Shown: positions 36,154-42,062 of the stretch, in pieces
How positions within the stretch are numbered: position 1 is the stretch's first letter
Layout of the letters: each line of letters begins with the position of its first letter
NCBI RefSeq assembly: GCF_000382205.1
Contig: NZ_KB907787.1
Span: 1,465,176 to 1,529,175 of the forward strand
Direction: 5' to 3'
DNA from: Dyadobacter beijingensis DSM 21582
GTDB taxonomy: Bacteria; Bacteroidota; Bacteroidia; Cytophagales; Spirosomataceae
Length of the DNA: 64,000 nt
The notes under the pieces: generated by a model
The model's input: the letters and a program-made list of their open reading frames with translations, nothing else
Database searches by the model: none
Told to the model about the DNA's origin: nothing
Program-made: the position numbers and the translations under genes

Positions 36154-37356
36154 TCAGGGAGCGACGGTTTGCACGGCACACAAAAACTCCTCCTTATCGT
36201 CGCGGGCGTAGTCCACGCGCTGGTCGGAGCGGTTGTGGATCGGTTCCGATTTTTCGCGCAGCGACAAGCCCGCCCGCCTGCCCAGCACCGCCTTGATTTC
36301 CGCCAACACCGACAAGGCGATTTCTTCCGACGTTTCAGCCCCGATATCCAGCCCGACCGGGCCGTACACCTTGGCTTTTTGCGCCTCGGAGATCGCCATT
36401 CCTTCGCTTTCCAGCTCCGCATACATGCGTTCGAGCTTTTTCTTGGGGCCCAATGCACCCGCATACTGGCAGGCCTCTACCGCAAGCAACTGTTTCAGTA
36501 GGGCGAGATCGTAGTTGTAGTTGTGGGTCATGAGCAGGAAAAACGTCCGCTCGTCGACAGTAATGTGTTTCAAAACATCCTCTGCGCGCACTACGAGCAC
36601 TTTTCCGGCTTTCGGAAACCGTTGGCGCGTGGCGTGGCCAGTCCGCCCGTCGACCACCGTAATATCCCAACCTAATACGGCCGCCATTTCGGTGAGCGGA
36701 ATGGTGTCATTACCAGCCCCGGCGATCACCAGCGACGGTGGCGTATTGAAATACTCCACAAAACCCGTAAGTGACAGGTTATTTTGGGTAAATGCTTTGA
36801 AAAACGAATCGTTCCGCTGATAGGCGGCCTGCGTTTCGGCCAGGAGCTGCTCGTACATACCCGGCCCTTCGCAATGGCAGGTAACCTGGTCGTCGGTTTG
36901 CAAATGCAGGAAGCACGTGCCCGGCTGCGACCCCGTGCGCGATTGCAGGGAGAACAGCGTCACCAAAACGGCATTCTGGCGCTTGGCAGCCACTTTTTTC
37001 AAGAGCTCCACCGGGTTTTCGGCGTCGTCGGTATGAATGGGTTCGAACAGGATGTGCACAATGCCGTTGCACCCCAGCTGAACGCCCAGGGTAGTATCGT
37101 TTTCGTCGGTGGTGTCGTAGGTAACCAGCTTGTTTTTCTGCTGGGAAATGGCGAGCAGGGCTTTTCGCAGCGCATCACCTTCGAGGCAGCCGCCGCTGAT
37201 AGCACCGGTGAGCTGGCCGTCGTCCGTCACGAGCATGCGTGCGCCCGGCCGCCTGTACGAGGAGCCTTCCACATGCACGACCGTCGCGAGCGCCATGCGC
37301 TTGCCCGAGTGCAATGCCTGCTCATACGACCGGATGATGTCCGAGATTTCTTTCAT
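36154..37356 (-). CDS. XdhC/CoxI family protein (molybdenum hydroxylase maturation)
   Basis: A 400-aa protein. The N-terminal XdhC/CoxI domain is marked by 'VEGSSYRRPGARMLV' and 'AISGGCLEGD' with its Cys. The C-terminal Rossmann-like domain shows 'LVIAGAGNDTIPLTEMAAVL' and 'LGPKKKLER'. XdhC binds molybdenum cofactor and hands its sulfurated form to xanthine dehydrogenase-type enzymes. The start overlaps the cysteine desulfurase gene by 35 bases. No molybdoenzyme gene is in the window. Confidence 0.93.
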   Translation of the reverse strand: MKEISDIIRSYEQALHSGKRMALATVVHVEGSSYRRPGARMLVTDDGQLTGAISGGCLEGDALRKALLAISQQKNKLVTYDTTDENDTTLGVQLGCNGIVHILFEPIHTDDAENPVELLKKVAAKRQNAVLVTLFSLQSRTGSQPGTCFLHLQTDDQVTCHCEGPGMYEQLLAETQAAYQRNDSFFKAFTQNNLSLTGFVEYFNTPPSLVIAGAGNDTIPLTEMAAVLGWDITVVDGRTGHATRQRFPKAGKVLVVRAEDVLKHITVDERTFFLLMTHNYNYDLALLKQLLAVEACQYAGALGPKKKLERMYAELESEGMAISEAQKAKVYGPVGLDIGAETSEEIALSVLAEIKAVLGRRAGLSLREKSEPIHNRSDQRVDYARDDKEEFLCAVQTVAP

Positions 37357-38500
37357 GGCGATGTTGTTTTACAATCCTTGAAATAACAGAAACGGCATGC
37401 GCGACGTCCTCTTCCGTAGAAAAGCGCCCAAAACTGAACCGGAAAGAGTTGTGAATGCGCTCGTCCGAAAACCCCATCGCTTTCAGCACATAACTCGGTT
37501 CCAGGGTTGCGGATGTACAGGCCGAGCTTCGGGAAAATGCCAGGTCGCTGCCTGCTTCGAAAATCAGCTTTTCGCCGTCGACCTGGCCGAATGAGATATT
37601 GGTGCAATGCGGCAAGCGCCGTGCTTCCTCTCCATTGACCTCGATATCCTGCAACATAAGCAGTTCCACTTCAAATGCATTGCGCAACGTAGCCACGCGC
37701 TTGCTTTCGCGCGTCAGTTCCGCTCCGGCGATCTCGCACGCCCAGCCGAGGCCTACAATGCCGGGCACATTGAGCGTGCCGCTCCGCATATTCCGCTCGT
37801 GGCCGCCGCCGTCGATCTGCGCGGTCAATGCAATGGCAGGGTTCTTCTTGCGCACGTATAATGCGCCCACGCCCTTGGGGCCGTAAAGCTTGTGCGCACT
37901 GATCGTCAGCAAGTCGATGCCTTCGTTCTGCACGTTTACGGGGATTTTGCCCACGGCCTGCGTGGCGTCCGAGAGAAAGGGAATCTGGTATTTTTTAGCA
38001 ATGGCGGCAATTTCCCGGACCGGCTGGATCACCCCGGTTTCGTTATTGGCATACATTACCGCAATGAGGATGGTGTCGTCGGTAACGGCATTTTCGAGGT
38101 CGGTGAGGCTGATTAGCCCGTTGGCATTCACCGGCAGGTAGGTGACGGTGCCGCCGCGACGTTCCAAATGCTTGCAGGTGTCCAGTACGGCCTTGTGTTC
38201 GGTGCAAACCGTGATAATATGCTTTCGTTCTTTCCCGGAATTGTCGAAAACACCTTTGATGGCGAGGTTAACAGCCTCCGTAGCACCCGACGTGAACACA
38301 ATTTCATGGGGATGTGCGCCAATAAGGCCGGCAATCTGTTCGCGGGCAATGTCCACCGATTCCTCCGCTTCCCAGCCATAGGAATGCGTACGGCTCGCCG
38401 CATTGCCGAACCGCTCCGAAAAATAGGGGAGCATCTCCTGTAACACCCTGGGGTCCACGGGGGTTGTCGCATTATTGTCCAGGTATACAGGCAGTTTCAA
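37322..38500 (-). CDS. cysteine desulfurase (IscS/NifS family)
   Basis: A 392-aa PLP enzyme that converts cysteine to alanine and carries the sulfur as a persulfide. 'YLDNNATTPVDPRV' starts the fold, 'SAHKLYGPKG' holds the PLP Lys, and 'SRSSACTSATLEPSYVLKAM' holds the persulfide Cys in IscS-like context. It overlaps XdhC by 35 bases, so here it probably supplies sulfur for sulfurating molybdenum cofactor. General Fe-S or tRNA sulfur supply is also possible. Confidence 0.93.
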   Translation of the reverse strand: MKLPVYLDNNATTPVDPRVLQEMLPYFSERFGNAASRTHSYGWEAEESVDIAREQIAGLIGAHPHEIVFTSGATEAVNLAIKGVFDNSGKERKHIITVCTEHKAVLDTCKHLERRGGTVTYLPVNANGLISLTDLENAVTDDTILIAVMYANNETGVIQPVREIAAIAKKYQIPFLSDATQAVGKIPVNVQNEGIDLLTISAHKLYGPKGVGALYVRKKNPAIALTAQIDGGGHERNMRSGTLNVPGIVGLGWACEIAGAELTRESKRVATLRNAFEVELLMLQDIEVNGEEARRLPHCTNISFGQVDGEKLIFEAGSDLAFSRSSACTSATLEPSYVLKAMGFSDERIHNSFRFSFGRFSTEEDVAHAVSVISRIVKQHRHERNLGHHPVV

Positions 38501-38562
38501 GGGAAAAGGTCGGTTTTTAATTCAAAAAGCAAAATGGGCCGGGTTAGTTCAAATTAAACAAA

Positions 38563-38593
38563 AAACCATCTCATTTTAAACATGAGATGGTTT
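38563..38593 (-). terminator. intrinsic terminator after the DabB-like gene
   Basis: A perfect 12-bp stem (AAACCATCTCAT / ATGAGATGGTTT) with a 7-base loop. On the minus strand it is followed by TTTTTTG. It separates the Dab-like pair from the cysteine desulfurase gene. Confidence 0.85.
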
Positions 38594-38679
38594 CCGAAAC
38601 TTAAACGAACAGGTTAACTATAATTATGAAAATCGGTAGTCGGTGGATGTAATTGGTGTTAGTGGGTTATTACAAAAGT

Positions 38680-39594
38680 TTAGGCACGCAGGTATTTCGA
38701 CAGCCGCGCGTACATGCCCCATTCTTTCATATACAGCATATACAGCGTGTATTGGAGCTTTTTAGGCAGCCGTTCCTCCCAGGTGAGGCTATTTTTCAAT
38801 ACGTGTTGCCCCGGTGATTGGCACTCCTGCGATCTGACCAGCTGATACGCCCTCAGCAATGCATTCGCTGCAAAGTGGGCCAGGGCAAGGCTTTTAAAAC
38901 CGGCCGCTACTTCGACAAAAATGAGCCCGGTATGCGTCATGGATGCGTAGGCGATCCGGCGCCTCGCGACCGTTTGTACCCGAACCATTCCTGCCGCCAT
39001 CGCCGCCGCCGCCGTCCCGAGCAATGCAATGAGTACGCGTATCGGCATTTGGTGTTCCCAAAGCGGCATTGTCCGCAGCAGTAGAAATATGCCCATTTGC
39101 ACGGCCAGCGTCGCCAGGAGCATGTTGCCGGCGGTCGAGGAATTTTCCATCGCCTGCGGGAGCCACGCCGACACCGGCAGTTGCGACGCCTGGGCCGAAG
39201 CCGTCATCACGAGCAGCAGGGAAACGAATGTCGTGTTTTCGTGCCAGAGGTGGTGGCTTGCCCACATGGCAAGGAGCAAGCCGACGTCCCCCAGGCGGTA
39301 TATAAAAAAGGCTTTCAGCGTGTTGCCGGGCGTAATGTTACGATGAAGTATGATCAGCAGGAACGACGCGAATCCCATGATTTCCCAGCCTGCAAACAGG
39401 ATTTTCAGGTCGCCGGAAAATATGGTAATGCCGTAACCCGCGCAAAAGAGCGCCAACGTGCAATAGAAGCGCGATATCTGCTCTTTGCTGCGCAGGGTCC
39501 TTCGGCCGTACACTGCGGTCAGGAGCGTTACGACGATCCCTACGAGCAGGTACGAAATGGCAATTCCGTCGAAATGGAAATGGTTTAAAAACAT
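38680..39594 (-). CDS. reduced DabB/NuoL-like proton-channel family protein
   Basis: A 304-aa membrane protein of the proton-conducting NuoL/MrpA/DabB family with about eight membrane segments. 'LFAGWEIMGFASFLLI' keeps the family Glu, and 'YRLGDVGLLLAMW' is also typical. The segment aligned with the key Lys/His helix reads 'AQASQLPVSAWLPQAMENSS', so the usual Lys and 'PTPVSALxH' motif are lost. DabB proteins are normally near 500 aa; this one is short at both ends. It lies 5 bases after the DabA-like gene and is their presumed membrane partner. Confidence 0.82.
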   Translation of the reverse strand: MFLNHFHFDGIAISYLLVGIVVTLLTAVYGRRTLRSKEQISRFYCTLALFCAGYGITIFSGDLKILFAGWEIMGFASFLLIILHRNITPGNTLKAFFIYRLGDVGLLLAMWASHHLWHENTTFVSLLLVMTASAQASQLPVSAWLPQAMENSSTAGNMLLATLAVQMGIFLLLRTMPLWEHQMPIRVLIALLGTAAAAMAAGMVRVQTVARRRIAYASMTHTGLIFVEVAAGFKSLALAHFAANALLRAYQLVRSQECQSPGQHVLKNSLTWEERLPKKLQYTLYMLYMKEWGMYARLSKYLRA

Positions 39595-39599
39595 ATATT

Positions 39600-41132
39600 T
39601 TAATGAACTGCCGCCAGGCGACGATCCGACTTGTACGCAACCATCTTACCATTTCTCAGCACACTCAGCTCCCGCGTATCCGGGTCGACCACGACCAGGT
39701 GCACCCATTCATTCACCAGCCAGCTTCTTGCGCTTCCGAGACGCCCGATCACCTTCAATACCGTTTCGGGGTAATGCTCCGTCACGCACAGCAGGCGCAT
39801 GGGCACATCACGCTCGGCCATACGCGCAGGCAGGCCTGTCCGGAGGTCGCCCTTGGCACCGGATGGCTCGACCAGTCCCGGAGTGTCTTCCGCCGCGGCA
39901 TAGGGCCGGTTGTTCAGGCCGGTGCGGGAGAAGAAATATTCGAGGTTAATGGCCCCGCAGGACGGGATAGCTGTTTCAAAGATTTCGGCGAGTAATTCGC
40001 CCTCGGGGTCGTCGGCGAAATCGTAGGGATTTATGCTCACGAGGTCGTCGGCCGGGAAGTTCCTGGCCAGCAGCGGACCGCCGATGAGGCAGGTCGTTCC
40101 GGGCGCTTTGGCGGCAGGGGATTCCTCCGGCCTGCCATGTGCCGGCCACAACGGGCGGGAGTGCGGCTCCGCGCCCGTGCGATGGTAAAGCCGGCTGAGT
40201 AACTGGTCATAGTAGCTCCATTCCACCGCTTCCTGCCAAATCGCCAGCACTTCATGTTTTTCGCTGGCCGGTACCGGTGCGAAAAGTTTGCCGGGTACCT
40301 CTGCCAAACCGGCCGAAAGTGGCTGCCAGCGATTTTTCAGGCGATGATCGAGCGCGTCTATTTCCAGTAATAATTCAAAAATGACCAGGTCGTACATGGC
40401 AACCATCCGACCTTCGGAAAATAGGCTATTGCGGTCTTCCATTTCCATTACCAGGCCTGACCAGCCCCTGTGGGCAAATTGCTGATCGAAAAGATATTGC
40501 TGGAAATGCGTCTCGTCGCCGACGACGACTTGCAGCAGATCGGCAATGCCGGGCCGGGTATGCAAAAGCAGGTTCCTGGCCCTGACGGTTTTGAATACGC
40601 TTACTAAGCTGTTCGCCTCCATTTCGCGCATGGAGTCGAGAAAGCCCAGGCCGCGCACGGGAAACTGCCAGGCCGCGGTGCGGGGAGCGAGACAAGCGCC
40701 CAGCAGCCGGAACAGGGTAGGATGAACCTCCTCATCCAGGTCGATTTTATATTGTTTTTTCCAGGCTGCCCTCAGTTTCCCGATCCTTGGCGACGCATCT
40801 GCACCGAATTTTTTCATCAGTACCTTATCCTGCCATTCGAATGTGCGCGCGGCGCCTTTCTTTTTCAGCACTACCTTTTCCAGAATGTCCGGTTTTACCC
40901 GTTTGGAATTGTAAAACGCGCGGTACTCTTCGGGCAACAGCGTGGTGCCGATGCCCAGGATTTCGTTCGCTTCGCGGGCCGCGTCATGGAACTTCCTGTC
41001 CTGAAAACCACGAAGGGGATTCTGGTAGGTGAATGTCCGCGACGGTGACATTGCAGGCAGGAATCGCTTCAACTCGTGCAATACCGTTTCTTCATCGAAA
41101 GCACTTTTCCGGGCTGTCATGTCAGAGGCCAT
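39600..41132 (-). CDS. DUF2309 (DabA-like) protein lacking the central zinc-site region
   Basis: A 510-aa DUF2309-family protein; DabA proteins, which with DabB accumulate inorganic carbon, are normally about 800-1000 aa. Residues 1-325 match the N-terminal part ('FLDSMREMEANSLVSVFKT', 'QYLFDQQFAHRGWSGLVME', 'ELLLEIDALD'). Residues 345-510 match the C-terminal part ('SCGAINLEYFFSRTGLNN', 'KGDLRTGLPARM'). Between them a Pro/Ala-rich linker of about 20 residues replaces the region holding the carbonic-anhydrase-like CxD...H...C site. The frame is intact across the junction. It is probably not a bicarbonate-forming enzyme; a different function or decay are the alternatives. Confidence 0.87.
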   Translation of the reverse strand: MASDMTARKSAFDEETVLHELKRFLPAMSPSRTFTYQNPLRGFQDRKFHDAAREANEILGIGTTLLPEEYRAFYNSKRVKPDILEKVVLKKKGAARTFEWQDKVLMKKFGADASPRIGKLRAAWKKQYKIDLDEEVHPTLFRLLGACLAPRTAAWQFPVRGLGFLDSMREMEANSLVSVFKTVRARNLLLHTRPGIADLLQVVVGDETHFQQYLFDQQFAHRGWSGLVMEMEDRNSLFSEGRMVAMYDLVIFELLLEIDALDHRLKNRWQPLSAGLAEVPGKLFAPVPASEKHEVLAIWQEAVEWSYYDQLLSRLYHRTGAEPHSRPLWPAHGRPEESPAAKAPGTTCLIGGPLLARNFPADDLVSINPYDFADDPEGELLAEIFETAIPSCGAINLEYFFSRTGLNNRPYAAAEDTPGLVEPSGAKGDLRTGLPARMAERDVPMRLLCVTEHYPETVLKVIGRLGSARSWLVNEWVHLVVVDPDTRELSVLRNGKMVAYKSDRRLAAVH

Positions 41133-41361
41133 TCGCGTTTAAAAGTAGTGATCCGGGAGGCCGGGAAATGGGCTGAGGGCCGTTTCCTGTTTCCGTTCTC
41201 AAAGGAGCCAAAGAGCAATTAAAACGCAATTAAACAAGACTTAAAATGCGGTTAAAATTGGTTAAACGGAACATTGTCAGCGTATCATGAAGCTGCTGGA
41301 CAGGCGGTTTTCCGCAGGATTTATTAATGGAAGAATTGGGCGTTAAATGAAACTATTTACT

Positions 41362-41369
41362 TAATTTTG
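41362..41369 (+). promoter_or_regulatory. candidate -7 box of the peroxiredoxin gene
   Basis: TAATTTTG matches TAnnTTTG; a TTG lies 23 bases upstream (41336-41338), slightly far. The rest of the 294-base gap (41133-41426) between the divergent DabA-like and peroxiredoxin genes holds no gene; several GGTTAAA/AATTAAA runs are present. Confidence 0.45.
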
Positions 41370-41426
41370 TGTTCTACTCTACAATGTTAGTAGATTAAAT
41401 GTTTCATTCTTTAAACCTTCACCATT

Positions 41427-42062
41427 ATGTCACTTCGATTAGGAGATATCGCACCGGATTTTGAAGCAAATACCACGCAAGGCCCTATTAAATTCCACGA
41501 ATGGCTGGGAGATAAATGGGGATTGCTGTTCTCTCACCCCGCTGACTTTACTCCCGTTTGTACAACCGAATTAGGGAAGACAGCGCTTTTGAAAGGTGAG
41601 TTTGAGAAACGTAATGTAAAAGTGCTCGCCGTGAGCGTGGATGACCTGGATTCGCACAACCGCTGGATTCCGGATATCAATGAAGTCAATAATGCGGAAG
41701 TGAACTTCCCGATCATCGCCGACGAAGACCGCAAAGTGGCTTATCTCTACGATATGATCCACCCGAACGCAAGCGAAAAAGCGACCGTTCGCTCGGTATT
41801 TGTGATCGGACCGGACAAGAAGATCAAACTTACGCTGACTTACCCGGCATCCACCGGTCGTAATTTCAATGAGATCCTGCGCGTGATCGACTCGCTGCAA
41901 CTGACTGCCAACTATTCCGTAGCGACACCAGCCGACTGGAAAGACGGCGAGGACGTGATCGTGGTACCGGCCGTAAGCACGGAAGATGCCCAGAAGAAAT
42001 TCACCAAAGGCCTGAACATCGTGAAGCCTTACTTGCGTTACACACCACAGCCGAATAAGTAA
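41427..42062 (+). CDS. 1-Cys peroxiredoxin (PRDX6-like)
   Basis: A 211-aa peroxiredoxin that reduces hydrogen peroxide and organic peroxides. 'HPADFTPVCTTELG' gives the peroxidatic Cys (about 45) with its Thr and Pro. The C-terminal extension ('GLNIVKPYLRYTPQPNK') and the lack of a second conserved Cys place it in the 1-Cys/Prx6 group. It is monocistronic with a strong bidirectional terminator. It may be under oxidative-stress control, but no OxyR-type site is evident. Confidence 0.95.
   Translation: MSLRLGDIAPDFEANTTQGPIKFHEWLGDKWGLLFSHPADFTPVCTTELGKTALLKGEFEKRNVKVLAVSVDDLDSHNRWIPDINEVNNAEVNFPIIADEDRKVAYLYDMIHPNASEKATVRSVFVIGPDKKIKLTLTYPASTGRNFNEILRVIDSLQLTANYSVATPADWKDGEDVIVVPAVSTEDAQKKFTKGLNIVKPYLRYTPQPNK

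Follow-up and report, generated by a model that had tools for sequence, protein, structure and literature searches.

What is left of a DAB complex, a two-part pump for carbon, once both subunits have lost the stretches proposed as its catalytic centre and periplasmic half-channel, and why would a bacterium keep it? The question is raised by a dabA-dabB gene pair at positions 38680-41132 of a 64,000-nucleotide stretch of the genome of the soil bacterium Dyadobacter beijingensis DSM 21582 (contig NZ_KB907787.1, positions 1,465,176 to 1,529,175; here, the window). An earlier note on this DNA had described a short DUF2309/DabA protein of 510 amino acids (aa) with a NuoL-like partner of 304 aa, and had suggested a repurposed ion-coupled machine. 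The two frames are as it had them. The pair is shared by a clade of Dyadobacter species and is clearly under long-term purifying selection across it; judged from its sequence features it is, on balance, probably a conserved pseudoenzyme remnant of the DAB complex, with what we infer to be a binding or regulatory role at the membrane.

What was lost from DabA and DabB

Both genes lie on the minus strand, 5 bp apart, a DabA with PF10070 homology standing beside a NuoL-like DabB that matches PF00361, as in the DAB/DAC vectorial carbonic anhydrases. Their parts are as follows (window positions).

39600..41132, minus strand: short dabA, 510 aa, without the beta-carbonic anhydrase (beta-CA)-like domain I (frame, Pfam, alignments)
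40323..41132, minus strand: DabA N-terminal helical domain, residues 1-270, limit approximate (Pfam, protein residues 19-324 against profile 2-282)
40173..40322, minus strand: first part of beta-CA-like domain II (II-a), residues 271-320, limits approximate, the 281-336 region of DabA2 (alignments, PMC13144422)
40095..40172, minus strand: linker, residues 321-346, where domain I is missing (variability between species; ratio of nonsynonymous to synonymous substitution rates, dN/dS)
39603..40094, minus strand: second part of beta-CA-like domain II (II-b), residues 347-510, with Cys348, Cys449 and His478 (alignment)
38680..39594, minus strand: short dabB, 304 aa, NuoL-like, about transmembrane helices (TM) 3-11 only (frame, PF00361, alignments)
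38821..39567, minus strand: nine membrane-length helices, DabB residues 10-258, read as TM3-TM11 (low-confidence model, alignment to full DabB and NuoL)
38689..38787, minus strand: conserved DabB C-terminal tail, consensus WEDRLPKKLKYT.YMLYTKEWG.YSRLSKYLR, stopping before TM12 of full DabB (alignments)

In the cryo-electron microscopy study of DAB2 published in 2026 (PMC13144422), DabA2 has three domains: an N-terminal one (1-280), domain I (341-655) and domain II, which is made of two stretches (281-336 and 656-827). Domain I holds the zinc ligands C351, H524 and C539, the dyad of D353 and R355, and a membrane finger that includes Glu444. When a full-length Dyadobacter DabA is aligned to 9rd0_A, all five of these zinc-ligand and dyad residues are in place. 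The window DabA matches the 747 positions of PF10070 only at profile 2-282 and 607-747, the N- and C-terminal family segments around an internal gap that the earlier note had seen. Against that full-length Dyadobacter DabA, the alignment of the short forms breaks off at residue 336-367 (at 338 in 5 of 11) and picks up again at 661-672, the longer N-side alignments, beyond 338 and up to 367, extending into the linker. The missing stretch is about Hn 330 to Hn 652-663, i.e., domain I to within ~10 residues at each end. Of the two beta-CA-like domains only domain II is kept, in its two halves, next to the N-terminal domain.

The zinc-site stretch is indeed absent: the columns of C351, H524, C539, D353 and R355 are all gaps in 11/11 short DabA, while C351, D353, H524 and C539 are present in all 25 long DabA aligned and R355 in 24. 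Relocation of domain I was rejected, the window's own genome (7.4 Mb) having no other PF10070 match. A linker does sit at the junction, as the note had it, but its length and sequence differ between species and it is Pro/Ala-rich in some, not all. As to conserved Cys or His elsewhere in the protein, three residues are kept among the 11 short DabA (Cys348 in 10, Cys449 in 11, His478 in 10). The eight long Dyadobacter DabA already have Cys348 (8/8) and His478 (7/8), with Phe or Met at the Cys449 position; Cys449 alone is thus new to the short forms, and the three might conceivably form a rebuilt zinc site. Within domain II-b, the DabA of three species (L046, L045, L047) contain an in-frame tandem repeat with a 15-base unit (VGRRS); a heptamer unit was searched for in DabA and not found.

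Ten short DabB could be aligned, one short-form genome (G010) having no dabB. All ten lack ~80-90 residues at the N-terminus (TM1-2), ~22 in a loop and ~220 at the C-terminus, these last making up the final third with the TM12-15 region. The remainder would be TM3-11 plus the conserved tail, the helices being numbered after the alignment to NuoL and a model of low confidence; of the two antiparallel bundles of a NuoL/Mrp antiporter-like subunit, TM4-8 and TM9-13, it therefore does not hold both. In the proposal made in PMC13144422, DabB TM4-11 resemble the NuoL cytoplasmic half-channel, and TM12-13 together with the DabA finger form the periplasmic half-channel. Both the finger (Glu444) and TM12-13 are missing here, so that the truncations of DabA and DabB removed both contributors to the same proposed half-channel.

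Among the NuoL residues named in the same source (K229, D178, R175, E144), the K229 equivalent, which is Lys in 6/6 full-length Dyadobacter DabB, is replaced by Gln in 10/10 short ones, in agreement with the earlier note's missing Lys. The K342 position is Arg in 6/6 full DabB and mixed in the short ones (Arg in 3/10). At the H254 position, all ten short DabB have Leu; the loss of an HA motif, which the note had also pointed out, holds to that extent but is less telling, since the position is already Tyr in 6/6 full ones. The NuoL residue names S250, H254, K305, H334, H338 and K342 are those we take to fit these DabB positions. With Gln and Leu at the K229 and H254 positions throughout, the short DabB do not carry the full set of DAB proton-path residues.

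The AlphaFold2 model of the short DabA (9 rows; mean pLDDT 68) has N-terminal helices and a small alpha/beta domain with a Rossmann-like core. In VIA-align, beta-CAs and the related carbonyl sulfide hydrolase lead its list with Z up to 6.3, within the range that possibly reflects a common arrangement only; 9rd0 is absent among the best 50 rows, which excludes nothing. The DabB model (8 rows; mean pLDDT 55) has nine membrane-length helices and, despite its low confidence, matches NuoL chains in Foldseek (best 7p69_L, E 9.7e-6).

Distribution and origin of the short pair

Among 48 Dyadobacter genomes, DabA was matched in 16: a short form in 11 (one genome per species), at least one long form in 7, and both in two (G008 and G031). 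Relatives with the same internal gap, which the earlier note had proposed to look for, thus exist; because the gap recurs in 11 genomes of different species it is no single-assembly artefact, and an assembly error, or a gap unique to the window's genome, was rejected. The short DabA is paired with a short DabB in 10 of the 11, with both frames uninterrupted in 9. The exceptions are G043 (L048), where dabB and nifS are frameshifted and a TonB-type neighbour gene is split into two open reading frames, together suggesting assembly indels, and G010 (L050), where the short dabA has an in-frame TAA. G010 is a case of secondary decay of the short form.

The pair occupies the same locus, between a peroxiredoxin gene and nifS-xdhC, in 15 genomes, 11 with the short form and 4 with a long DabA of 803-862 aa. 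Two of the latter, G021 and G014, have DabA of 843 and 831 aa with the zinc-site residues present and DabB of 633 and 635 aa. In the other two, G020 and G027, DabA has 862 and 803 aa while DabB is reduced to remnants of 255 and 132 aa; these may possibly be intermediates. As a separate observation on their DabA (L053 and L052), the R653 position is altered in both, and R355 is Pro in G027. In a further 25 genomes the peroxiredoxin gene and nifS lie close together and no dab match was obtained at E <= 1e-3, so loss of dab is an available route. Seven have no peroxiredoxin beside nifS, and G007 has no nifS match at 1e-100.

Both trees point to one origin. The DabA tree (quick, no bootstrap, 36 rows; L067 and L038 dropped for short frames) places the 11 short forms in one clade (SH-aLRT 100) within a group that includes the four same-locus long forms (SH-aLRT 99). 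The tree of three neighbour genes (also quick and without bootstrap; 40 genomes, leaving out the seven without peroxiredoxin beside nifS, plus G007) joins the same 11 genomes (SH-aLRT 99), with five changes needed for the short/long/none character. Since each tree gives one clade, a single origin of the short form is most likely, at this locus and in an ancestor of these 11 Dyadobacter genomes. The end of DabB falls at almost the same point (full residue 403-415) in the short clade as in G020 and G027, and truncation of DabB may thus have preceded that of DabA; parallel DabB loss is conceivable too, because G020 and G027 do not group with the short clade on the neighbour-gene tree.

PF10070 was found in 105/222 family genomes and in 106/390 genomes of an order sample that includes only some Dyadobacter. 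Outside Dyadobacter, no internal-gap DabA was seen by PF10070 in either set, several of the search rows being partial or split matches, and no short DabB at E <= 1e-40 in the 390 genomes.

The neighbouring features of the window are these.

38561..38595, minus strand: terminator-like hairpin 3' of dabB (stem comparison among genomes)
37322..38500, minus strand: class-V aminotransferase/NifS-like neighbour gene (Aminotran_5), locus marker (neighbour comparison)
41427..42062, plus strand: 1-Cys peroxiredoxin neighbour gene, locus marker (neighbour comparison)

The hairpin lies upstream of nifS, is followed by a T run and has a 12-bp stem identical in 11/11 short-form genomes. It was rejected as a dab-specific element because similar hairpins precede nifS in several dab-less genomes. 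An Rfam scan of 38400-41500 gave three matches, each under the gathering score.

Some further observations concern other DabA. Three of four full-length dab pairs at other loci (L055, L057, L058) share one small neighbour gene, the L055 copy being an ArsR-family regulator. The position of DabA2 Leu658, described in PMC13144422 as strictly conserved among 150 homologues and replacing the canonical beta-CA Gln/His, is His in 18/25 long DabA aligned (L066, L070, L071, L074, L080, L083, L089, L037, L039, L040 and eight Dyadobacter long DabA, in L051-L058) and Leu in 7; the Bacteroidota-type DabA may keep the canonical residue. A second DabA type occurs in the family (L062, L065, L078, L082, L088), matching the profile at 1-49 and then from ~101-106, the stretch between unmatched.

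Purifying selection on both remnants

The earlier note had proposed measuring dN/dS across the group. With codon models fitted pair by pair rather than by branch (GY94 with F3x4, in an own script), the median was 0.180 for dabA (range 0.005-0.256) and 0.192 for dabB (0.060-0.285; the G043 gene used as its 279-aa frame), in 45 pairs each. Many pairs are saturated at synonymous sites (dS up to 69 in dabA); those with dS < 1.2 gave 0.171-0.256 for dabA (19 pairs) and 0.147-0.285 for dabB (21 pairs). Neutrality was rejected in 45/45 pairs for each gene, four pairs without a common branch on the drawn DabA tree included, with likelihood ratios (LR) against dN/dS = 1 of at least 110 (dabA) and at least 45 (dabB). 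Differences at third codon positions are 3-4 times as frequent as at second ones. In a neutral simulation from one sequence (d = 0.24, 400 runs), dabA was never stop-free and dabB was in 0.75% of runs, with ~6-14 stops expected per gene. Long-term purifying selection on short dabA and dabB across the clade is clear. What the note had said of the two subunits, that they shrank together with frames intact and without decay, is largely borne out by these values, with dN/dS about 0.2 in both genes, and by the single origin and the short-with-short pairing.

The constraint is unevenly spread. Among 21 pairs of short forms from 7 close species, median dN/dS was 0.153 in the DabA N-terminal domain, 0.151 in domain II-a and 0.197 in domain II-b. 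The linker looks to be evolving near-neutrally, with a median dN/dS of 0.61 and a median LR of 0.5, at which neutrality is not rejected. In DabB, residues 131-245 are the most constrained (0.105, against 0.228 for 1-130 and 0.246 for 246-304). The one unsaturated full-length pair, from another locus, gave 0.177 for dabA and 0.181 for dabB; its N-terminal domain stood at 0.209, compared with the 0.153 of the short forms.

Possible roles and known relatives

The reading as a conserved pseudoenzyme remnant starts from the losses described above. In the clade ancestor, DabA was stripped of the counterpart of domain I, with its zinc site, Asp-Arg dyad and finger, but not of its N-terminal domain or domain II, and DabB was reduced to about TM3-11; both remnants have since been kept by purifying selection. 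The two stubs may still dock as a membrane-anchored complex. Without the zinc site such a remnant should be unable to hydrate CO2, and with the periplasmic half-channel and the K229-equivalent Lys gone it should pass no protons by the DAB2 route. What is selected would most likely be binding or regulation through the surface of the N-terminal domain and domain II, which the DabB stub would hold at the membrane; CO2/bicarbonate chemistry is probably covered by beta-CA-family proteins. Matches to that family over the Pfam cut-off are present in 48/48 Dyadobacter genomes, so the catalytic function of DAB would be redundant.

Several observations weigh against this reading. In G010 the pair appears dispensable, because its dabA has a stop and dabB is gone; its dabA nevertheless gives dN/dS of 0.046-0.190 against the 10 others, with LR of at least 114, so the pairwise test is blind to recent loss of function in single lineages. 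The dab pair evolves faster than its neighbours (medians of 0.042 for nifS, 36 pairs with the G043 gene left out; 0.053 for xdhC, 45 pairs; 0.024 for the peroxiredoxin gene, 28 pairs from 8 genomes). Same-locus full-length pairs, which are saturated, also have lower values (dabA 0.010-0.076 in six, dabB 0.072 in one), and domain II-b reaches only 0.098 in the one usable full-length pair, half that of the short forms. In the DabA model, residues 318-344 and 394-441 have pLDDT < 50; the poor prediction of the latter stretch counts here, as it includes the DabB-facing hairpin region and is largely deleted in G037 and G010. Foldseek gave no match to the DabA model with E < 0.001. The N-terminal domain is thought, in the account of PMC13144422, mainly to serve folding. 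Finally, the equivalents of E144, R175, D178 and H334 are kept in 10/10 short DabB and that of K305 in 9/10 (the window has Arg), so some role for ions or charge may persist.

Such a role underlies the note's proposal of an ion-coupled machine; on that view ion movement by the stub would persist, either as a leak or in coupling with a new reaction. These kept residues and the strong constraint on DabB 131-245 are in its favour. Passage of ions along the DAB2/NuoL route is nevertheless unlikely, because TM12-15 and the DabA finger are gone and the K229 equivalent is invariably Gln; the Arg at the K342 position has also been lost from most short forms, and no catalytic domain remains for coupling. 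We accordingly consider the proposal distinctly unlikely. Slow decay, i.e., a dying DAB operon, redundant beside the beta-carbonic anhydrases and caught part-way, would fit the ubiquity of the beta-CA family, the 25 genomes without dab at the locus, the DabB remnants beside long DabA in G020 and G027, the faster evolution of the pair and the G010 form, whose decay is invisible to pairwise dN/dS. Against it stand the rejection of neutrality in every pair, the branch-independent ones included, the excess of third-position changes and the retention of dabA in 11/11 clade genomes, 9 of them with both frames uninterrupted. Plain decay across the clade is thus unlikely.

The remaining alternatives assign the remnant a more specific task. 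As a sensor, domain II without domain I would bind CO2/bicarbonate or another small ligand and signal at the membrane; the Rossmann-like core, the beta-CAs heading the weak structural list and the purifying selection are compatible with this, but no signalling partner is seen, the peroxiredoxin, DUF6962 and nifS neighbours being the same with and without dab, and we regard it as very unlikely. A speculation of slightly lower standing still is that the former dimer face of domain II recruits a separate beta-CA or pairs with itself, and that Cys449, Cys348 and His478 form a new redox or metal site; if true, deletion of the enzyme's own active domain would have produced a split carbonic-anhydrase platform docked at the membrane, or a redox switch. 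Regulation of a full-length DAB by a short pair present alongside it, as an accessory or by a dominant-negative effect, could apply to G008 and G031, which have both forms, but 9 of the 11 short-form genomes, the window's included, show no full-length DabA, which makes it extremely unlikely.

Read as a conserved pseudoenzyme remnant, the pair amounts to a natural domain-deletion experiment, in which the pieces lost are those proposed as catalytic centre and periplasmic half-channel and the rest stays selected. With full and stripped versions available at one locus, it can be tested whether the N-terminal domain and domain II of DabA contribute anything beyond folding of the enzyme.

Among titles and abstracts of the literature matches listed, with most subscription papers and preprints outside their scope, no domain-deleted DabA was found. 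The NuoL-like/COG3002 pair has been proposed as a membrane energy-converting complex (in the relevant part of PMC5700660), and a Leptospirillum DUF2309 protein has been linked to oxidative stress and chromate tolerance (in that of PMC9080137). MpsAB of Staphylococcus belongs to the same families, PF00361/PF10070, as the window pair; the pertinent section of PMC8552792 mentions one S. sciuri strain with MpsA and MpsB apparently truncated and describes no conserved short form. The short DabA model weakly resembles CsoSCA, the carboxysomal beta-CA (Z 5.1-6.3), which is a carbonic anhydrase, whereas short DabA has no domain-I zinc ligands. DAB2 of Halothiobacillus neapolitanus (DabA2/DabB2, PDB 9rd0, as described in PMC13144422) shares with the pair the DabA N-terminal domain and domain II, the NuoL-like TM3-11 and the adjacent genes; it differs in having domain I, the zinc ligands, the Asp-Arg dyad, the finger with Glu444, TM1-2 and TM12-15, and in its K235 (NuoL K229), which is Gln in the short DabB. 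The same-locus pairs of G021 and G014 are orthologues of the short pair, as both gene order (peroxiredoxin / dabA dabB nifS xdhC) and the tree indicate, and are distinguished from it by a DabA and DabB of full length and a DabA with its zinc-site residues.

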